64,000 bases of DNA from Acidobacteriota bacterium (lineage in GTDB: Bacteria; Acidobacteriota; Terriglobia; Bryobacterales; UBA6623), in contig WGMB01000004.1 in the NCBI GenBank assembly GCA_016125275.1, forward strand, positions 62,001-126,000, in the 5' to 3' direction. The position numbers were made by a program, and so were the translations under genes. Of the stretch, positions 48,328 through 58,804 are shown piece by piece. Under the pieces are notes generated by a model. The model saw only the letters and a list, made by a program, of their open reading frames with translations, did no database searches and was not told the DNA's origin. How positions within the stretch are numbered: the first letter of the stretch is position 1; each line of letters starts with the position of its first letter.

Positions 48328-50877
48328 GTGATGCTCGCTCGTCTCGCCGTCTGCTCTCTGCTGGTCGCCGCCGCTCTGCCGGCCGTGGACTTTGTAGCCG
48401 ACATCGAGCCGATCTTCCACCAGCGCTGCTTCGCTTGCCACGGCCCCTCGATGCAGATGAGCGACTTCCGTCTCGACGATCGCGAGGCGGCGCTCAAGGG
48501 CGGCTATTCCGGCGCCGTGATCGTTCCGGGAGACGCCGGGGCCAGCAAGCTGATCGAGCGCGTCTCGAGCGACAAACAGAACTTTCAGATGCCGCCGGCC
48601 GGTCCGCGCCTGAGCGAGGCCGAGGTCGCCGCGCTGCGGGCCTGGATCGACGAAGGCGCCAAGTGGCCCGAGCGAGCGCCTACCAAGAAGCTGACGCAGG
48701 AGCAGCGGAGCCGGCATTGGTCCTTCCAGCCGATCCAGCGGCCCGCGCCGCCGAAGGTCGACGACTCCTCCTGGGCGCGCAACCCGATCGACCTGTTCGT
48801 GCTGGCTAAGCTGGAAGCCGAAGGCGTCAAGCCGTCGCCGGAAGCCGACAAGGTCACTCTTCTGCGCCGAATCTCGTTCGACTTGGTGGGTTTGCCGCCG
48901 ACGCCGGAGCAGGTGGAGCGGTTTCTCGCCGACGACAGCCCGCAGGCCTACGAGAAGGTCGTCGACGAGCTGCTCGATTCCAAGCACTACGGCGAGCGTT
49001 GGGCGATTCCTTGGCTCGACGCGGCCCGCTACGCCGATTCCGACGGCTACGAGCGCGACCCGATCCGGCCCTACGCCTGGCGCTGGCGGCAGTGGGCCAT
49101 CGGCGCCATCAACCAGGACATGCCGTTCGACGAGTTCACCGTGGAGCAGATCGCCGGCGACCTGCTGCCCGGGGCGACCCTCGAGCAGCGCGTGGCGACC
49201 GGCTTTCTGCGCAACGGCATCAAGAACCGCGAAGCCGGCGTGAAGAACGAAGAGAAGCGCTTCGAGGAGACCCTGGACCGCACCGCCACCATCGGCAAGG
49301 TCTGGCTGGGGCTGACCGTGGGCTGCGCGCAGTGCCACGACCACAAGTACGATCCGATCAGCCAGAAGGAGCTCTATCAGCTCTACGCCTTCTTCAATAA
49401 CGCCGTCGAGCGCGACATCGACGCGCCGGTCCAGGGCGAGCTCGGCGTGCTGCTGCGGGCCCTGCCGGAGTATCGCCGCCGCCGCGCCGAAATCCTGAAA
49501 GAGGCCGATGTGGAGCCGCACTATCAGCAGTGGCGCAAGGAGATGATCGAGGCCATGGATCATCCCGGCGAGCGCACCGACTGGGACTTCAGCCTGACCG
49601 AGTGGCGAGCCTCGATGGACCGCGCCGACTGGCTCATGCGCGCCTCCGACGACGAGCTCAGCGAGATCGAGCGCGAGGGGCGCGTGGACAAGTTCCTGGC
49701 GCGGCTCGGCCCGGACATCTCCAAGCAGGAAGAGCTGGCCAAGAAGCTCAAGGAGACCAAGGAGAAGCTCGACGCCTTGGAGAAGGAAGTCTTCCCCGTC
49801 CGCACGCTGGCCTACACGATGATCGAGCGCGACGCCGCCCATCGTGAGCCGACCTATATCGCCTTGCGCGGCGACTGGCGCGCGCCGGGCGTGGAGGTGC
49901 AGCCGCTGACCCCGGCCGTGCTGCCGGCGATGGAGCAAAGCGACCCGAAGCACCCTCGGCTGGAGCTGGCTCGCTGGCTGGTGGACCCCAAGAATCCCTT
50001 GACCGCCCGCGTGACCGTCAACCGCTGGTGGCAGGAGCTGTTTGGAAAGGGCCTGGTGAGCACGGCGGACGATTTCGGCACCCAGGGCGCCCCGCCGACG
50101 CACCCCGAGCTGCTCGACTGGCTCGCGTCCGAGCTCGTGCGCAAGGATTGGAGCCGCAAGGCCATGCTGCGGCTGATGGTCACCTCGGCGGCCTACCGGC
50201 AGGCCTCCCACGACCGGCCGGACTTGCGCGATCGCGACCCGGACAACAAGTGGCTGGCGCGCCAGAACCGCTTGCGGCTGCCGGCCGAGCTGGTGCGCGA
50301 CAACGCCCTGGCCGTCAGCGGTCTGCTCAACCCGGAGATCGGCGGGCCGAGCGTGCATCCGCCGCAGCCGGCCGGCGTCTCCGAGCTGGGCTACGCCAAG
50401 AAGGCCTGGCCGGAAGATCAGGGGCCGGAGCGCTACCGCCGGGGTCTCTACATCTTCTTCCAGCGCACCACGCCGTACCCGTTCCTGACGAACTTCGACG
50501 CGACCGACACGTTGACCTCGAAGGTCACCCGCGAGCGTTCGAACACGCCCCTCCAGGCGCTCAACGTGCTCAACGATCGGGTCTTTCTGGAGGCCGCGCA
50601 GGCGCTCGCGCTGCAGACCGTGCTGGACCGCCAAGGCTTCGACGCCCGGCTCGACGAGATGTTCCTGCGGGCCTTGAGCCGCAAGCCGGAAGCGAGCGAG
50701 CGAGACCGCGTCGCCACCTATCTGGCCAAGCAGAAGGAGATCCTGGCGGCTGAGCCCGGCGCCGCGGAGAAGCTCGCGCCGCTGGTCCCGTCCGACGAAG
50801 ACCCGCTCGAGATGGCCGCCTGGACGGGCGTCGCCCGCGGGCTGCTGAACCTCGACGAGATGATGGTGCGCGAGTAG
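48328..50877 (+). CDS. DUF1549/DUF1553 protein with planctomycete-type cytochrome domain
   Basis: An 849-residue exported protein of the PSD1/planctomycete cytochrome type. After the signal (ARLAVCSLLVAAALPAVD) comes a heme-binding C-type cytochrome domain (FHQRCFACHGPSMQMSDFRL), the DUF1549 domain at about 150-360 with a second CXXCH in VGCAQCHDHKYDPISQ, and the DUF1553 domain at about 530-790 (LARWLVDPKNPLTARVTVNR, ERSNTPLQALNVLND). The two heme motifs suggest an electron-transfer role; the substrate is unknown. Start is GTG 48328 or ATG 48331. The DUF1501 partner gene that usually follows is absent: a terminator comes next. Confidence 0.92.
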   Translation: MMLARLAVCSLLVAAALPAVDFVADIEPIFHQRCFACHGPSMQMSDFRLDDREAALKGGYSGAVIVPGDAGASKLIERVSSDKQNFQMPPAGPRLSEAEVAALRAWIDEGAKWPERAPTKKLTQEQRSRHWSFQPIQRPAPPKVDDSSWARNPIDLFVLAKLEAEGVKPSPEADKVTLLRRISFDLVGLPPTPEQVERFLADDSPQAYEKVVDELLDSKHYGERWAIPWLDAARYADSDGYERDPIRPYAWRWRQWAIGAINQDMPFDEFTVEQIAGDLLPGATLEQRVATGFLRNGIKNREAGVKNEEKRFEETLDRTATIGKVWLGLTVGCAQCHDHKYDPISQKELYQLYAFFNNAVERDIDAPVQGELGVLLRALPEYRRRRAEILKEADVEPHYQQWRKEMIEAMDHPGERTDWDFSLTEWRASMDRADWLMRASDDELSEIEREGRVDKFLARLGPDISKQEELAKKLKETKEKLDALEKEVFPVRTLAYTMIERDAAHREPTYIALRGDWRAPGVEVQPLTPAVLPAMEQSDPKHPRLELARWLVDPKNPLTARVTVNRWWQELFGKGLVSTADDFGTQGAPPTHPELLDWLASELVRKDWSRKAMLRLMVTSAAYRQASHDRPDLRDRDPDNKWLARQNRLRLPAELVRDNALAVSGLLNPEIGGPSVHPPQPAGVSELGYAKKAWPEDQGPERYRRGLYIFFQRTTPYPFLTNFDATDTLTSKVTRERSNTPLQALNVLNDRVFLEAAQALALQTVLDRQGFDARLDEMFLRALSRKPEASERDRVATYLAKQKEILAAEPGAAEKLAPLVPSDEDPLEMAAWTGVARGLLNLDEMMVRE

Positions 50878-50967: not shown

Positions 50968-53778
50968 CTAGTTGACGTCGAAGTTCTCGCGGTGCAGCGA
51001 CACGTCGCTGCGCACCAGAACGTGAGCCCCGAAGGTCTCCTCGAGCTCTTGCAGGAAGGTGTTGTCGCGGGACTTCAGCGCCCGCGCCACGTCGGGGTTC
51101 ACCCGCAGCGTCAGGTCCTTCTTGGACTTCAGCTTCGGGGCCATGCGCTTGGCCTGCTCCAGGATCTCGAGGATGACCGTGTTGGTCGCCTTGACGAAGC
51201 CCGAGCCTTCGCAGGCCGGGCAGGGCGAGCAAAGGCTCCGCTCGAGCGACTGCTTGACGCGCTTGCGCGTAATGGCGATCAATCCGAAGTCGTTGAACTG
51301 CAGGACCTTCGAGGGAGCCCGGTCGTGGCGCAGCTCGTTCTCGAGCGCCTGGGCCACCTTCTTGCGATTGGCCTTGTCGTCCATGTCGATGAAGTCGACG
51401 ACGATGATGCCGCCAAGATCGCGCAGTCGAACCTGGCGAACGATCTCCTCGGCCGCCTCCAGGTTGGTCTTGACGATCGTATCTTCCAGGCGGTCGGACT
51501 TGCCGACGTACTTGCCGGTGTTGATGTCGATCGCCACCAGCGCCTCGGTCTGGTTGATCACGATGTAGCCGCCGGACTTGAGCCACACCTTGGGCCGCAG
51601 AGCCTTCTCGATCTCCTGCGTGATGTTGAGCTCGTCGAAGATCGGCTTCGAGCGGGTGTAGAGCTTCACACAGGGAACCAGATCGGGCTGGAACCGCTCG
51701 CAGAAGCGCAGGATCGACTCGTAATGGTCTTCCGAATCGACCCAGATCGACTTGAAGTTCTGGCCCAATTGGTCGCGCAGGATGCGCTCGACCACGTCCA
51801 GGTCCTGGTGCAGCAAGGCCGGCGCCGGCGTGCGGTCCGCCTTCTCCTTGATGACCTTCCACAGGTTGGCCAGGAAGCGCATGTCCTCGGCCAGATCCTC
51901 ATCGCTGGCGCCGGCTCCGGCCGTGCGCACGATGAAGCCGCCGGGAATGCCTTCCATGTTGCCCTTGATCACCCGGCGCAGCCGCGCGCGCTCGGCGTCG
52001 GAGCCGATCTTGCGCGAAACGCCCACGTGCGGCGAGGTCGGCATGTAGACCAGGTGCCGCCCGGGCAGCGCCACGTGGGTGGTGATGCGGGCGCCCTTCT
52101 TGCCCAGCGGCTCCTTGGCGATCTGAACGATCAGCTCTTGGCCAGCCTTGAGCAGATCGGCGATGCGCACGTCGCTCTCGTTGCCGGCGCCCCGCTCGCT
52201 GCGATCTCCCTTCTCGGAACGCTCGCCGCGCTCGGAGCGTTCGCCCCGCGAGGGGCGTTCGGAGCGGGCCGGCTGCTCGTCCGGCTGAGCCTCGACAGCG
52301 GTCTCCTCGGAGTCCGTTGCCGCGGAGGAGGATTCACCCGTCTGGGGCGAGCCGGATTCGTCGCGCCCACGGCGGCGTCCGCGACGGCGGCCCCGGCGTC
52401 CGCGGCGAAGCTGCCGCGAGCCGGACTCATCGCGCACCGAGGCTTCGATCGGCGCTTCGCCGCCGGCGCCGGCGCGGTCGAGAATCTCGCCCACTGCCCG
52501 GTCGGCCTCTTCCTCGACGTCGGCGTCGAACAGGCGGCGCTTCGGCGGCGCCGAGCCGTCCTCGTCCTCGTCGCTGTCGGCGGCTTCCGCCGCGAGCGCG
52601 GCCGCCTCTTCCTCGTCCCGATTGGCTTCGGCGATGGCCTGCGCCTCGTCGGCCGCCTCGTCCTCGAAGCTGATCTCGGGCTCTTCTTCGGATTCTTCTT
52701 CCGAGCTTTCGTCGTCCGACTCCTCCTCGTCATCCGAGTCTTCCTCGTCCGCGGAGTCGTCGTGGTCCTCTTCCTCTTCGTCGGGCTCTTCGTCCGCCTC
52801 GTCGCTGTCGTCGTCGGACTCTTCGTCGTCCGATTCCTCGACGACGGCCTCGATCTCCTCGTCGACCTCGGCTTCCTCGTCGACTTCGCTCTCGTCGGCA
52901 GCTTCCTCGTCTTCGTCGGGATGCTCGTCTTCGTCCTCGTCCTCGAAGCGTGAGGCGCCCACGGCCAGCCGCTCGTCTTCCTCGTCCGCCGAGTCCTCGA
53001 CGTCGTCTTCGTGGGCGGGCTTGCCAGCGTACTTCGCCAGCGACTCGCCGGGCAGGGGAGTCAGGCCGTAGTTGTCGTCCTCATCGTCTTCGGGCTCGGG
53101 CGCGGCCTGGCGCGAACGGCCTTCCAGCGCTTGGGCCTCGGCGTGGCCGTCGACGACGGCAAACTTCGACTCCGGCAGCAGGCTATCGTTGCGGCCTCCG
53201 CGGCGGCGGCGGCCCCGGCGGCCTCGCTCGCGGCGGCCCGACGGACGCTCGTCGTCGGAACGGCGCTCGGAGCGCTCGGTCCGATCACCGGCCGCGGCTT
53301 CCTCGCCGCGCTCGGACTTCTCGCCCCGCTCGGGTCTGTCGCTGCGGTCGGACCGGTCGCTACGGTCGGATCTCTCGCTACGGTCGCTGCGGTCGGACCG
53401 ATCGCCGCGATCCCCGCGGGAGGAGCGATCGCCACGCTTGTCGCCGCGGGATCGACCGCGCCGCGAGGGCTCGGCGTCGGCCGCCGGCGCGGAGCCGGCC
53501 ACTAAACTGTCTTCTTCGTCGTCGAGTTGGCCGCTCTCGAGGTCGGCCGTTTCATCGAGAACGTCGGAGACGTAGAGGAACGCGTCGCGCTCCAGGCCGA
53601 GTTTGACGAACGCGGACTGCATGCCGGGGAGCACCCGGCTGACGCGTCCTTTGTAAACACTGCCCGCCAGAGCATGCTCGGCGGTGCGCTCGATGGTGAT
53701 TTCGACCAGACGGTCGTCTTCCAGGAGCGCGACACGGGTCTCATGCCGATTGGCTGAGACGACCAGTTCTTTTGACAC
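50968..53778 (-). CDS. rng: RNase E/G family endoribonuclease with a large charged insertion in its S1 domain
   Basis: A 936-residue Rne/Rng-family enzyme that cleaves single-stranded RNA in mRNA decay and rRNA processing. Residues 1-73 hold the N-terminal strands and first part of the S1 domain (GSVYKGRVSRVLPGMQSAFV). Residues about 74-536 are low complexity: R-S-D/R-G-D/R-S-E runs, then an Asp/Glu-rich stretch, then an Arg/Gly-rich part. The S1 domain resumes at VRIADLLKAGQELIV (537) and the catalytic core follows: ALVAIDINTGKYVGK and GGIIVVDFIDM with the metal Asps, and the zinc link CSPCPACEGSG. The start is GTG at 53778 behind GGAGGA. It follows rodA on the same strand, as rng follows mre genes in other bacteria. 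Confidence 0.93.
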   Translation of the reverse strand: MSKELVVSANRHETRVALLEDDRLVEITIERTAEHALAGSVYKGRVSRVLPGMQSAFVKLGLERDAFLYVSDVLDETADLESGQLDDEEDSLVAGSAPAADAEPSRRGRSRGDKRGDRSSRGDRGDRSDRSDRSERSDRSDRSDRSDRPERGEKSERGEEAAAGDRTERSERRSDDERPSGRRERGRRGRRRRGGRNDSLLPESKFAVVDGHAEAQALEGRSRQAAPEPEDDEDDNYGLTPLPGESLAKYAGKPAHEDDVEDSADEEDERLAVGASRFEDEDEDEHPDEDEEAADESEVDEEAEVDEEIEAVVEESDDEESDDDSDEADEEPDEEEEDHDDSADEEDSDDEEESDDESSEEESEEEPEISFEDEAADEAQAIAEANRDEEEAAALAAEAADSDEDEDGSAPPKRRLFDADVEEEADRAVGEILDRAGAGGEAPIEASVRDESGSRQLRRGRRGRRRGRRRGRDESGSPQTGESSSAATDSEETAVEAQPDEQPARSERPSRGERSERGERSEKGDRSERGAGNESDVRIADLLKAGQELIVQIAKEPLGKKGARITTHVALPGRHLVYMPTSPHVGVSRKIGSDAERARLRRVIKGNMEGIPGGFIVRTAGAGASDEDLAEDMRFLANLWKVIKEKADRTPAPALLHQDLDVVERILRDQLGQNFKSIWVDSEDHYESILRFCERFQPDLVPCVKLYTRSKPIFDELNITQEIEKALRPKVWLKSGGYIVINQTEALVAIDINTGKYVGKSDRLEDTIVKTNLEAAEEIVRQVRLRDLGGIIVVDFIDMDDKANRKKVAQALENELRHDRAPSKVLQFNDFGLIAITRKRVKQSLERSLCSPCPACEGSGFVKATNTVILEILEQAKRMAPKLKSKKDLTLRVNPDVARALKSRDNTFLQELEETFGAHVLVRSDVSLHRENFDVN

Positions 53779-54136
53779 CCAAAGTCCTCCCTCTCGCTGG
53801 GGAGGGCCCTGCGCGGCCACGGCCGGCGTTCGACGGTTGGATTCAGTGCGCGCTCCGGAAGAACGACGAAACCTGCGCTGTTCCTTTGCACTCGCCCACG
53901 ACCCCTAACAGGCCGCGAACGCGCCAACCATCCCAAAAATCCTGCCCGCCGACGGAGCGCTCGACCTCGTCCCGCTCAAACGCCGACAGCCGTTCAGCCG
54001 CCCCTCGCCCTCAAACAACCGGCGAGCGGCCCTTCACCCAGCAATCCTTCCTACAACGCGGCGCCGGTCCCAATACCGGCGTCGAAACTCGTTTTTCCGG
54101 CGGTTTCCCGCCTCTGCCCCTTCGACGGTCGCCCAC
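53779..54136 (-). other. 358-bp non-coding region before the RNase gene
   Basis: Gap between rodA and the RNase gene, both on the minus strand. It holds the Shine-Dalgarno GGAGGA at 53785-53790. A small hairpin (GGCGG, GAAA loop, CCGCC) is at 54099-54112 and a GCCGGT/ACCGGC repeat at 54063-54080. No open frame here has convincing codon use, and I see no clear promoter. If transcribed with the RNase gene, it would be an exceptionally long leader for this window, a possible site for autoregulation as known for E. coli rne. Confidence 0.5.
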
Positions 54137-55231
54137 CTAGTTCGCGAACCGTCGCATTCGCACATTGTTGACCAACCCAAGCAATGCGAACGTCGACAGC
54201 AACCCGGACCCGCCGTAGCTCATCAGAGGCAGCGGCAAACCCGTCACCGGCATGCGGTTCACCACCATGCCGACGTTGACCGTTATGTGAAACAACAATA
54301 GCGCCGCCACTCCCATGCAGAGTTGAGCGCCCGCCGCATCGACGGCTGTCTGCGCATTGTGCACGATCTTCATCAAAACTGCAAAGTACAATGTCATCGC
54401 CACCAGGATTCCGACGAATCCGGTCTCCTCGGCGAACGACGCCAAGACGAAATCCGTGTGCGCTTCCGGCAGGAACCGCAACTGCGTCTGCGCTCCCCGG
54501 GCGAAGCCCTGGCCCCACAGTCCGCCCGAGCCCACCGCGATCTTCGACTGCAACGATTGGTAGCCGCGGCCGCGCGGATCCTTCTCCGGCTCCATGAAGA
54601 CCGTCAGCCGATCCTTCTGGTAGGGAGTGAGCACCCGCCAGCCGATCGGAGACAGGATCACCGCCAGCAAGCCGACGCTCAGGACCCAGCGCCAGCGCAG
54701 GCCGTTCAAAAAGATCCCCATGCCCAGGATCGGAAGATAGCTTAGCCCCGTGCTCAGATCGGGCTGTTTGATCACAAGCAGGACCGGAATTGCGAACAAT
54801 CCGGTGATCTTGGCGAGCTGCGGCAGCGTCACGCCGCCGCGCGGCGGCTCGGAAAAGAAGCGCGCCACCAGCAGCACCAGCGCCCCCTTCACGAACTCCG
54901 AGACTTGGAGATCGGGCAGGCCCGGCAAAGGCAGCCAACGCCGCGACCCATTCACATACGGCGCAAACAACAGCACGGCCGCCAGCCCGGTCACCGCCGC
55001 CACGTAGAACACCGGCGCCTGGCCGACCAGCCAGCGGTAATCCACGCTCGAGGCGAACCAGAACGCCCCGAGCCCCAACGTGATCCAGATCATCTGGCGC
55101 AGGTGAGCGTCCTGCCAAGCCGTCGCCCGGGTCGCGCTGTAGATCTCGAGCACGCCCAGGGTGGCGATGGCCAGCGTCAGCAGCAGCAGCAGCCAGTCGA
55201 AGTCGCGCCAGCTGGAGGCTCGTTCCGTCAT
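54137..55231 (-). CDS. rodA: Peptidoglycan glycosyltransferase RodA
   Basis: A 364-residue SEDS-family protein with about ten membrane segments. RodA polymerises peptidoglycan during lateral growth with PBP2. Signature pieces are NGSRRWLPLPGLPDLQVSEF (loop with the conserved RW-L), IKQPDLSTGLSYLP (catalytic Asp), QGFARGAQTQLRFLPEAHTDF and MPVTGLPLPLMSYGGSGLLS. The start overlaps the stop of mrdA by 4 bp. Last gene of the rod-shape operon before the RNase gene. Confidence 0.96.
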   Translation of the reverse strand: MTERASSWRDFDWLLLLLTLAIATLGVLEIYSATRATAWQDAHLRQMIWITLGLGAFWFASSVDYRWLVGQAPVFYVAAVTGLAAVLLFAPYVNGSRRWLPLPGLPDLQVSEFVKGALVLLVARFFSEPPRGGVTLPQLAKITGLFAIPVLLVIKQPDLSTGLSYLPILGMGIFLNGLRWRWVLSVGLLAVILSPIGWRVLTPYQKDRLTVFMEPEKDPRGRGYQSLQSKIAVGSGGLWGQGFARGAQTQLRFLPEAHTDFVLASFAEETGFVGILVAMTLYFAVLMKIVHNAQTAVDAAGAQLCMGVAALLLFHITVNVGMVVNRMPVTGLPLPLMSYGGSGLLSTFALLGLVNNVRMRRFAN

Positions 55232-57096
55232 GGCCTGCTCCCGTCGGCCAGAGCCGGCTGCTGCGGCTGGTCGGGCTCCTGCGGCTGGCGCCGCGCCCAC
55301 TCCAGGCGCTGGCGCTTGTCGAAGTAGGCCTTGATCACGTCGCGTACGATCGGCGCGGCCAGGGGACCGTGCTCGCCGTTCTCGAATAGAGCCGCTACCA
55401 CGATCTCCGGCTCGCGGCAGGGCGCGAAGCCCACGAACCAGGCGTCGTCGAGCAGCCGCGGGTCGTCATTGCGCATCGCGAAGCTGCGGGAAACGCGCTG
55501 GGCGCTGCCGGTCTTGCCGCAGACCTCCACGGTCGACAGGGAGGCGGAGCCGCCGGTGCCGCCGCCGTTGACCACGCCCCACAGCCCCCGCCGGACGGCT
55601 TGCAGCGCCGACGGCGAAATCTGCGCCACATCGGGCTCGGGCCGCTGAAAGTCCGGGTAGAGCTGCTCCATCTCCTCGTAAGGCAGCAGGTGCGGGCGGT
55701 GCCAGACGCCGCCGATCGCCAAGCCGCCGATGGCGTGCGCCGCCTGCAACGGCGTGACCGTCAGCGCGCCCTGGCCGATCGAGACCGAGATCGTCTCGCC
55801 GGCGTACCAGCGGTCTCGGAAGAAGCGCGCCTTCCAGGTCGCCGAGGGCACGATGCCCTCCTGCTCGTTCGGCAGGTCGACGCCGGTCACCCGGCCCAGC
55901 CCGGCGATCGAGGCGTACTTGGCGATGCGGTCGATCCCCAGGTCCTTGCCCAGGTTGTAGAAATACACGTCGCAGGACTGCGCCAGGGCCTTCTCCAGGT
56001 CCACCCAGCCGTGGCCGCCGGCGCGGTGGCAGCGGTGATAGTGGCCGTAAAACGACGCTCCGCCGCTGCAATGCACCTGGAAGCTGGGGTCCACCACGCC
56101 CTCGGCCAGCGCCGCCCAGGCGACGATCGGCTTGAAGATCGAGCCCGGCGCCAACTGCGCCTGGATGGCGCGGTTGAGCAGCGGCTTGTCGGGGTCGTTC
56201 ATGACCGCCTGCCAGTCCTCTACGCTGATGCCGCCCACAAAGCGGTTCAGGTCGTAGGTCGGCGCGCTGGCCATCGCCAGCACTTCGCCGTTGCGCGGAT
56301 CGAGCGCCACCACGGCGCCGCGGCGGCCTTCGAGCGACAGCTCGGCTACCGCTTGCAGGTCCAAATCGAGCGTCAGGGCGATCGTGCGGCCGGGCTTGGC
56401 GTCCACCACGTCCAGGTCGCGCACGCGCCGCGAACGGCTGTCGACCAGCACCATGCGGCTGCCGTCGGAGCCGCTGAGGGCGTCGTTGTACTGCCGCTCG
56501 AGGCCGGCTTTGCCGACCTCGGCGCCGGATTCGTAGAGCACGAAGGCTTCCTGCTCCAGCTCTTCCTCGCTGATCTCGCCCACGTAGCCGATCACGTGCG
56601 CCGCCAGCCCGTCTTGCGGATACAGCCGCTGCTGCGAGCGCAACAGCTCCAGCTCCCGCAGCTCGGCGCGGTGCGACTCCAGGAACGCCACCTCCTGGTG
56701 CGCCAGGTTCTCCTTGAGGATCACCCGCTGGTACTCCGGCGAGCTCTCGATCTCCCGGATGCGGCCCTGCAGCCGTTCGTAGGGAATCTGCAGGCCTTCG
56801 GCCACCAACGGCAGGTGGTCGCGCTCGAGCTCGGCGCGCGAGAGCATCACCTTGAAGCTCGGCCAGTTGTCCACCAGGATGCGGCCGTCGCGGTCGACGA
56901 TCTTGCCACGCGGCGCCAGGATCGGCAGCGAGCGGATGCGGTTCATCGCCGCCCGCTCCTCGTAGACCTCGGTGTTCTGGACCTGCAACTGCCAGAAGCC
57001 GCTCAGCAGCCACAGAAAGACGAAAGCGGCGACATACTGGAACGCCGTCGTCTCCACGTCCCGCGCCGAGCGGGGCTCTTTGGAGAACTCGTTCAC
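55228..57096 (-). CDS. mrdA: Penicillin-binding protein 2 (peptidoglycan transpeptidase)
   Basis: A 622-residue class B PBP. A short cytoplasmic N-terminus and one membrane segment (about 20-38) lead to the dimerisation domain (PILAPRGKIVDRDGRILVDN). The transpeptidase domain carries LAPGSIFKPIVAWAAL (Ser-x-x-Lys), AQSCDVYFYNLG (S-C-D in place of S-x-N) and VEVCGKTGSAQ (K-T-G). It cross-links peptidoglycan during elongation, with RodA. Start is GTG in the GTGA overlap with mreD. The Pro/Gln-rich tail (RRQPQEPDQPQQPAL) is extra compared with E. coli. Confidence 0.95.
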   Translation of the reverse strand: MNEFSKEPRSARDVETTAFQYVAAFVFLWLLSGFWQLQVQNTEVYEERAAMNRIRSLPILAPRGKIVDRDGRILVDNWPSFKVMLSRAELERDHLPLVAEGLQIPYERLQGRIREIESSPEYQRVILKENLAHQEVAFLESHRAELRELELLRSQQRLYPQDGLAAHVIGYVGEISEEELEQEAFVLYESGAEVGKAGLERQYNDALSGSDGSRMVLVDSRSRRVRDLDVVDAKPGRTIALTLDLDLQAVAELSLEGRRGAVVALDPRNGEVLAMASAPTYDLNRFVGGISVEDWQAVMNDPDKPLLNRAIQAQLAPGSIFKPIVAWAALAEGVVDPSFQVHCSGGASFYGHYHRCHRAGGHGWVDLEKALAQSCDVYFYNLGKDLGIDRIAKYASIAGLGRVTGVDLPNEQEGIVPSATWKARFFRDRWYAGETISVSIGQGALTVTPLQAAHAIGGLAIGGVWHRPHLLPYEEMEQLYPDFQRPEPDVAQISPSALQAVRRGLWGVVNGGGTGGSASLSTVEVCGKTGSAQRVSRSFAMRNDDPRLLDDAWFVGFAPCREPEIVVAALFENGEHGPLAAPIVRDVIKAYFDKRQRLEWARRQPQEPDQPQQPALADGSRP

Positions 57097-57632
57097 GGCG
57101 TGGTCCTCCGCGAGCGGTCCAGCGCCGGGAACAGCACCAGCGCCAAGCCCGCGTGCACCGCGCACAGCATCAGCGCGCGGGCCGGGTCGACCGACACGTG
57201 CCGGCCCAACAGCCCGCCCACCAGCAGCCAGAAGACGGTCTGGTGGACCAGGAAGAAGAAGCCCGTCAGCACGCTGCGCGCGCCGGGATAGTCCATCTCC
57301 ACGTACAGGCTCAGCGAAGCCACGGCGTAGCCCACGATCGTCTTGGTGATGCCGAAGATCCCGATCGGCCCGTGCGTCAAGCCGTCCTGCGCCACTCCGA
57401 TCACCAGACCTACCAGCATGCCGATCAATACGTGCCGACGCAGTGACGCCAAGTACACCACCACCAGCAACGGCAAATCGAGCAGCCGCGCTGAAGGGAT
57501 GTAGGCCGGCAGGAAGACTTGCAACGAGAGCGCGCTGATCGCCAGCGCCAGCGTGGCCCCCGGATGCAGCAGGGTCGGCTGGCGCAGCGGCTTTGCCAGC
57601 GGAGAGCGTCCGACCACGCGGGAAGGCATCAT
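57093..57632 (-). CDS. mreD: Rod shape-determining protein MreD
   Basis: A 179-residue membrane protein with about five segments, standing between mreC and mrdA as MreD does in other bacteria. Blocks such as LLDLPLLVVVYLASLRRHVLIG, GIAQDGLTHGPIGIFGITKTI (here GVAQDGLTHGP) and the helical pair at the end fit the family, which is poorly conserved. Both ends overlap neighbours by 4 bp. It links MreC and PBP2/RodA at the membrane. Confidence 0.9.
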   Translation of the reverse strand: MMPSRVVGRSPLAKPLRQPTLLHPGATLALAISALSLQVFLPAYIPSARLLDLPLLVVVYLASLRRHVLIGMLVGLVIGVAQDGLTHGPIGIFGITKTIVGYAVASLSLYVEMDYPGARSVLTGFFFLVHQTVFWLLVGGLLGRHVSVDPARALMLCAVHAGLALVLFPALDRSRRTTP

Positions 57633-58804
57633 GGCTGGGGCTCGCTGGTCGCCACCGCCGGAGCCGAAGAAGTCGGCGCTCCCGGCGCGGGGGCCGGCTC
57701 CGCGGTCGGCGCCGCCGGCTCGGTCTCGCCTTCGACCGGCGCTCCGGCGTTGAAGTCCGGCGGACCGGCGCCGATCTTCGCCTCGCCCAGGCGCACGCCC
57801 TGCGAGGCGGCGATGTCACGGTAGCGCTTCTTGATGCGGTCGGCGTCGGTCAACAGCCCTTGCGGCCTCTGCGCCGGGTTGCGGTCGTCCGGCGGCGCCG
57901 CTTCGGTCAAGGTCTCGCCGGGAGCGGAAGGCTCGAGCGGAGGCAGCGGCAGCAAGGTCTCCGGCAACTGCGGCCGCCGCGGCGGCAACTCCTCGTGCAC
58001 GCCTTCCACGATCACCAGCACCTCGTCGAGGCGGTCCAGCGGCGCGTAGGGGACGGCGTAGATCTCTTGGAAGTCCGTGCCGGACTCGACGCGCGTCACG
58101 CGTCCCACCGGCAGCCCCTTGGGGAAGATCCGGTCCTCGCCCGAGGTCAGCACCTCTTCGCCGATGCTCACCTTCACCTCATGCTCCACGTAGTCGATCA
58201 GGCACTCGCGCTCGCCTTGGCCGCGCAGCAGGCCGCGCACCCGCGAATCGGCCAGGATCACGCCGGCGCCGGAGTCGGCGTCGTCGATCAGCAGCGCCAG
58301 GGCGGAGCCGGGATAGGCCGCCAAGACCTTGCCGACGATGCCGTCGGCCACCACGATCGCCATGCCCGGCAGCACGCCGTCGCGCCGGCCGCGGTTGAGG
58401 ATGATCTCCTTGGAATTGGCGTTGGCGCCGCCGCCGATCACCTCCGCCAGAATCGTTTTCGAGGCGATCCGCTCTTGGTAGGAGATCAGCGTTTGCTCGC
58501 GCTGCAACTGCGCCAGGTCGCGCCGCAGCTCCTGGTTCTCCAGCCGCACCTTGTCCAAATCGCGCTGCAACTGCTCGTTCTCGTCGCGCGCGCCGATCAG
58601 CCAGACGTAACCCGTCCAGCCCTCGGCCACGAAGTCGAACGAGGAGTGCAGCCCTTTGTTGATCGGAGCGATCGCGCCCATCGTCCAGGCGCGCAGCAGC
58701 GTCATGTCGTCGTCACGACGCACCTGGTAGCCGAGCAGCACCAGTTGCAGCCCAACCGCCAGGATCAGGGCGGCCGTATTGTAGTAACGCGCCCAAAAAC
58801 TCAC
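57629..58804 (-). CDS. mreC: Rod shape-determining protein MreC
   Basis: A 391-residue protein with one N-terminal membrane segment (about 9-26), a coiled coil (about 75-110, ENEQLQRDLDKVRLENQELR) and the beta-rich periplasmic core (about 115-270) with KEIILNRGRRDGVLPGMAIV, DGIVGKVLAAYP and IDYVEHEVKVSIGEEVLTSG. The Ala/Pro-rich C-terminal tail of about 110 residues (with APAPGAPTSSAPAVATSEPQ) is longer than in E. coli MreC. It bridges MreB and the wall-synthesis enzymes. Start is GTG at 58804. Confidence 0.95.
   Translation of the reverse strand: MSFWARYYNTAALILAVGLQLVLLGYQVRRDDDMTLLRAWTMGAIAPINKGLHSSFDFVAEGWTGYVWLIGARDENEQLQRDLDKVRLENQELRRDLAQLQREQTLISYQERIASKTILAEVIGGGANANSKEIILNRGRRDGVLPGMAIVVADGIVGKVLAAYPGSALALLIDDADSGAGVILADSRVRGLLRGQGERECLIDYVEHEVKVSIGEEVLTSGEDRIFPKGLPVGRVTRVESGTDFQEIYAVPYAPLDRLDEVLVIVEGVHEELPPRRPQLPETLLPLPPLEPSAPGETLTEAAPPDDRNPAQRPQGLLTDADRIKKRYRDIAASQGVRLGEAKIGAGPPDFNAGAPVEGETEPAAPTAEPAPAPGAPTSSAPAVATSEPQP

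Follow-up and report, generated by a model that had tools for sequence, protein, structure and literature searches.

Insertions in the S1 domain of RNase E have been described for alphaproteobacteria and plants, where they are charged, disordered and 50–150 aa long (PMC4245959). In the crystal structure of Caulobacter crescentus RNase E a helix of this insert protrudes into the RNA site, where its Asp/Glu residues could mimic RNA; RhlB binds to the S1/5'-sensor part of the same enzyme, and deletion of the S1 insertion of the Arabidopsis enzyme reduces its activity (PMC4245959). Charge patches are reported to be both necessary and sufficient for the formation of condensates by C. crescentus RNase E (PMC12691583). 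Recruitment of PNPase by a conserved motif that lies within disordered sequence of cyanobacterial RNase E is mentioned in PMC4435900. For the Fibrobacteres/Acidobacteria group, a survey from 2011 gave an enzyme of 511 aa with no predicted degradosome potential (PMC3071783), and in the open literature searched we found no specific description of an acidobacterial RNase E/G degradosome, of an S1 arm or of the motif LPGESLAKY reported below.

The gene studied here (50968..53778; reverse strand, as are all features below unless stated otherwise) lies in a window, i.e., the whole stretch of DNA that was analysed, of 64,000 nucleotides. It is an rng/rne-type gene, which encodes a protein of 936 aa of the RNase E/G family in an uninterrupted frame from a GTG start codon. 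The placement of this start is supported by the relatives, whose proteins begin, as MSKELV, at the same residue, and a Shine-Dalgarno-like GGGAGGA (53785..53791) was found by direct reading 6 nt 5' of the GTG. A Pfam search with the full protein returned PF10150 (335.9 bits) and a match to PF20833, and TIGR00757 scored 497 bits. Upstream on the same strand are mreC, mreD, the PBP2 gene (mrdA) and rodA (54140..58804), recognised by their Pfam matches (MreC; MreD, weak at 18.1 bits; transpeptidase/PBP_dimer; FTSW_RODA_SPOVE). A neighbourhood of this mre/rodA type is known for rng in E. coli. On the other side, a convergent gene on the forward strand (48328–50874) carries PSCyt1, PSCyt2 (DUF1549) and PSD1 (DUF1553) domains. 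The RNase E/G gene is the sole PF10150 gene of its genome, in which we also found a single gene each for an RNase J-type enzyme and for PNPase, and no match to RNase Y.

Alignment to E. coli RNase E indicated that residues 1–75 (53554..53778) form the N-terminal part and the first half of the S1 domain. Since residues 3–75 and 538–883 align to chain residues 10–82 and 96–441 of the E. coli enzyme, 462 residues (76–537; 52168..53553), delimited by alignment, composition and AlphaFold, stand in place of an E. coli loop of 13 residues. The chain of C. crescentus RNase E (4OXP) is interrupted at the same break, from residue 94 to 166. The full-length protein gave no match to the Pfam S1 domain; when residues 76–537 were removed, a match that spans the junction appeared at 18.9 bits, just below the cut-off of 22 bits. 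The core (RNase_E_G by Pfam, residues 571–841; 51256..52068) contains the catalytic residues D751 and D795, and alignment to E. coli RNase E locates the Zn-link CPAC with C853 and C856 (51211..51222); these four residues are invariant among 36 aligned proteins (alignment A1), and together the PF10150 core, the Asp pair and the cysteines place the protein in the RNase E/G family. The Pfam domain RNase_E_G_Thio (residues 852–935; 50974..51225) reaches residue 935 of 936 and, therefore, there is no C-terminal tail and no degradosome scaffold in the form of disorder after the catalytic domain. The preliminary description, which had placed the disorder in the S1 domain (at 52171–53559, correct to within a few bases) and reported an intact active site and zinc link and a missing C-terminal scaffold, is thus borne out.

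The architecture combines features of several described enzymes. As in C. crescentus and plant chloroplast RNase E, it is the S1 loop that is enlarged, and the insert is likewise charged, predicted to be disordered and variable in length, but its 462 residues exceed the range of the alphaproteobacterial and plant insertions, and C. crescentus RNase E possesses a C-terminal scaffold in addition, which the acidobacterial enzyme does not. With the C-tail of gammaproteobacterial RNase E, including that of E. coli, it shares long disorder, two Arg-rich blocks, low-complexity repeats in tandem and short lineage-specific motifs (PMC4435900), although here the disorder sits inside the S1 loop and the host enzyme is RNase G-like; inspection of the insert by eye revealed neither a membrane-targeting motif nor any of the known motifs for helicase, enolase or PNPase. 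The likeness to E. coli RNase G (rng/cafA) consists of the PF20833 C-terminus, the mre/rodA-type neighbours and the best equivalog score, that for PRK11712, although this score (482.1 bits, with a match broken by the insert) remains below the cut-off of 594. E. coli RNase G, however, is compact, whereas the acidobacterial enzyme is the only RNase E/G of its genome and carries an arm. The cyanobacterial PNPase-binding microdomain is comparable in being a conserved motif within disorder, in a phylum far from the Proteobacteria. That microdomain is placed after the catalytic domain. Since S1 insertions have already been described for alphaproteobacteria and plants (PMC4245959), the location in the S1 loop is in itself not new; the novelty lies in how large the insert is, in the phylum, in the RNase G context and in the set of motifs.

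The insert contains 167 D/E and 70 K/R residues (63 of them R) and neither W nor C, with 0.51 of its residues charged. It contains RSD/RGD/RSE repeats (residues 108–181; 53236..53457; mean top-residue frequency 0.23 in alignment A1), for which the RSD units are encoded by differing codons (CGGTCCGAC, CGCAGCGAC, AGATCCGAC, CGTAGCGAC), so that neither a newly arisen DNA repeat nor an assembly slip accounts for the insert. Then follow a first Arg-rich block (residues 183–195, RERGRRGRRRRGG; 53194..53232), in which R188, R190 and R191 are invariant, the heptapeptide LPESKFA (residues 201–207; 53158..53178), detected by motif search as an instance of [LF]P[ED]SK[YF], and LPGESLAKY (residues 242–250; 53029..53055), detected by motif search, in alignment A1 and with a DNA pattern in the genome. 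By composition, residues 252–420 (52519..53025) form an Asp/Glu-rich tract, unconserved in sequence, in which the net charge per residue falls as low as −0.76. The second Arg-rich block (residues 458–472, RRGRRGRRRGRRRGR; 52363..52407), with R464 and R465 invariant, precedes RSE/RGE repeats (residues 505–530; 52189..52266; composition and codon check), after which the S1 domain resumes. The repeats, the acidic tract and the Arg-rich tract had been recognised beforehand, but the most informative feature, LPGESLAKY, had been overlooked.

In 89 inserts the motif search found the elements in a constant order, i.e., Arg block 1, [LF]P[ED]SK[YF]A, VLPGESLAKY, acidic tract and Arg block 2, with VLPGESLAKY at a relative position of 0.37 (s.d. 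0.04). LPGESLAKY was present in all 89, and LPGE[ST][LI]xK[YH] in all 75 complete loci of named relatives. For [LF]P[ED]SK[YF], 82 of the 89 inserts outscored every shuffled control, which is a rough guide as the model used to score these controls had itself been fitted on the real inserts; the alignment result is independent of this. In alignment A1, L242, P243, G244, E245, K249 and Y250 are invariant, and conservation, expressed as mean top-residue frequency, reaches 0.97 in LPGESLAKY and 0.83 in the catalytic part; the two Arg blocks have 0.78 and 0.64, the whole insert 0.33 and the acidic tract 0.25. Judged by this alignment, LPGESLAKY is more conserved than the catalytic domain and kept as strictly as the active site, inside an insert that otherwise drifts fast. 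Of 61 genomes of the class, 47 contained a match to a degenerate DNA pattern of the motif, in most cases a single one and with varied codons, while the other 14 may carry variants outside the pattern; the reversed pattern, used as a control, matched in one of the 61. The possibility that LPGESLAKY is shared with a second protein of the same genome was rejected, as the single match there was the RNase E/G site. The few off-site matches in other genomes resemble chance (e.g., PGERLGKY).

LPGES is doubled or tripled in a number of relatives (L063, L064, L206, L045, L048, L227 and L228), including a direct tandem, LPGESLAKYVLPGESLAKY. One enzyme of the same class (L086, family f4) has an S1 insert of 620 aa in which the LPGES pattern was unmatched, apparently a degenerate case; a more tolerant motif search scored an LPGES-related segment in all 15 inserts of family f4. 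LPGES was absent from the loci read in other classes of the phylum. The S1 inserts of sister lineages carry strict motifs of their own instead, LLKDAxxQEKI, FERVTDED, VGSL and RRGGRGRR, in all 13 inserts examined (L046, L052, L053, L105, L109, L110, L119 and L122–L127), a replacement with the same pattern of turnover as that of RNase E C-tail microdomains (PMC4435900).

The comparison across Acidobacteriota that had been suggested as a check revealed an insert of 298–597 aa at the same place in every one of the 75 loci of named relatives that were complete, nearly all of which are of the Bryobacterales/Terriglobia type. With few exceptions, the genomes of this family and this order have long open frames, and across the class the insert measures 246–871 aa, the maximum being reached in family f4. 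These sequence comparisons show the insert to be class-wide, ancient and selectively maintained, with a fixed order of elements, and its RSD and D/E stretches drift nonetheless. In the remaining classes of the phylum, S1 inserts measure 87–544 aa, and compact enzymes (loops of ca. 10–50 aa), C-tails of 149–322 aa and N-extensions occur as well. The latter, of ca. 300–890 aa as judged from open-frame lengths, were seen at L252, L248, L253, L108, L236 and L245, and some of these enzymes share their genome with a C-tailed copy. No RNase E/G match at all was obtained for 41 of 297 genomes of the phylum, many of them nearly complete, and likewise for one genome of the same order (G047).

In a quick, midpoint-rooted tree of the catalytic domain, with some long branches and with E. 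coli sequences not included, the S1-insert enzymes grouped with only three label changes and the C-tailed enzymes formed a separate, fully supported group. The RNase_E_G_Thio C-terminus, the lack of a C-tail and the position apart from the C-tailed enzymes put our enzyme on the RNase G-like side; as E. coli sequences are outside the tree, "E" and "G" are used here as labels of architecture. None of the 14 two-copy genomes for which both copies were read has an S1 insert, and one of their copies is usually C-tailed; genomes with an S1 insert are single-copy in our counts, except for one (G320) with two long copies, of which one was read. This separation of S1 insert and C-tail is a pattern of the sample rather than a tested law. 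Some compact single-copy enzymes in the phylum have no long disordered region and, consequently, a scaffold is not obligatory.

On balance we favour the interpretation that the sole RNase E/G of this bacterium is an endonuclease of the RNase G-like kind, in which the S1 loop became extended to form a long and disordered arm for interactions. Because the insert is ancient and class-wide and keeps LPGESLAKY as strictly as the active site, the arm probably serves, to judge from its sequence, for the docking of RNA and partner proteins and is not filler. Like AR1 and AR2 in the tail of E. coli RNase E, the Arg blocks would bind RNA, here close to the entrance at the S1 domain and 5' sensor, and LPGES[LI]xKY would dock a partner in RNA decay, with PNPase, a DEAD-box helicase and RNase J, all of them near-universal, as first candidates. 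The acidic tract may hold the arm extended and could rival RNA in binding to the Arg blocks and to the surface of the S1 domain, by which activity would be tuned. At the RNA entrance, the arm would do the job of the C-terminal scaffold of RNase E. A docking arm at this site is favoured by the likeness to AR1/AR2 and to microdomains, by the proximity of the S1 loop to the entrance and by the C. crescentus precedent, and the presence of RNase J and PNPase, the lack of an RNase Y match and the single PF10150 gene fit with it. Against it speak the weak AlphaFold models and the ease with which low-complexity sequence of the Arg-rich and acidic kinds evolves in genomes of high GC content, whereas the compact single-copy enzymes without long disorder argue against an obligatory scaffold. 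The preliminary description had suggested that degradosome functions moved into the S1 loop. The two conserved Arg blocks, the near-invariant motif and, in the genomes read, the separation from the C-tailed type fit with such functions residing there; given the position of the enzyme in the tree, among the RNase G-like proteins, this gene need never have had a C-tail of the E. coli type from which they could have moved. That this class of Acidobacteriota built a degradosome independently on an RNase G-like S1 loop, at the RNA entrance and with LPGES[LI]xKY as the recruitment motif, while sister lineages did so with other sets of motifs, is a tentative proposal, to which we would give slightly less than an even chance.

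Structure prediction, which had been proposed as a further check, indicated disorder of the insert, with pLDDT below 50 almost throughout; LPGESLAKY, with a short helix at residues 247–250, is the only stretch of the insert where block pLDDT comes near 60. The rise occurs in both models (of the window protein and of a relative, L208), which are themselves weak (pTM 0.31–0.32, shallow alignment, folded domains only moderately modelled too). These models suggest that the insert is unstructured with LPGESLAKY as a segment of raised confidence; they give no docking site for the motif, their overall confidence being too low for a docking claim. The local rise would also suit an insert that acts mainly on its own enzyme, with LPGESLAKY as a latch that clamps onto its catalytic domain from within, the acidic segments mimicking RNA to cover the S1/5'-sensor groove, and the Arg blocks cancelling these segments in the absence of RNA. 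The C. crescentus helix and the Arabidopsis deletion (PMC4245959) lend this cis-regulatory reading a precedent. However, the tandem or multiple copies of the motif (up to three) in many relatives suit partner docking better, and the length of the insert varies widely within the class (263–871 aa by one of the counts), so that we regard a mainly cis-acting arm as unlikely.

The charge-patterning analysis bears on another explanation, that the alternating charge blocks drive phase separation, as do the patches in the C-tail of alphaproteobacterial RNase E (PMC12691583). The segregation of charge in the insert exceeded that in all 1000 shuffles at every blob size, and the segregated charge patches that mark BR-body formers are present. 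Among relatives, however, charge content is strongly variable, with net basic inserts in L075, L076 and L079 of the same family, and the constant element is a short motif rather than charge; condensation as the main role of the insert seems, therefore, distinctly improbable. It is still harder to believe that the insert is a neutral low-complexity expansion, kept as harmless in a permissive surface loop: this loop is the natural insertion site of the RNase E/G family and the RSD/RSE and D/E stretches drift freely, but the near-invariant LPGESLAKY, the Arg blocks and the order of elements fixed across the class do not agree with such drift. A recent expansion of a DNA repeat was rejected as the whole story, as codons vary and relatives share the architecture. 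A frameshift, chimaera or assembly artefact, for which nothing was found in favour, was rejected as next to impossible, as the frame is open here and the same holds, with identical boundaries, for over 100 relatives.

In the class examined, each complete locus that we read encodes a long-armed enzyme, against the enzyme of 511 aa without predicted degradosome potential of the 2011 survey (PMC3071783). In a phylum that is among the commonest in soil, LPGESLAKY provides a near-invariant handle of nine residues for finding partners in RNA decay. It can now be tested whether a scaffold inside the RNA-binding domain controls the entry of substrate, and whether the position of the scaffold is interchangeable in evolution, as all three arrangements (S1 loop, C-tail and N-extension) are represented within a single phylum. 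Three records named as Arcobacter sp., Acidimicrobiia and Nevskia soli (L197, L208 and L213) contain a Bryobacterales-type enzyme with the full insert and are probably mislabelled or misbinned.
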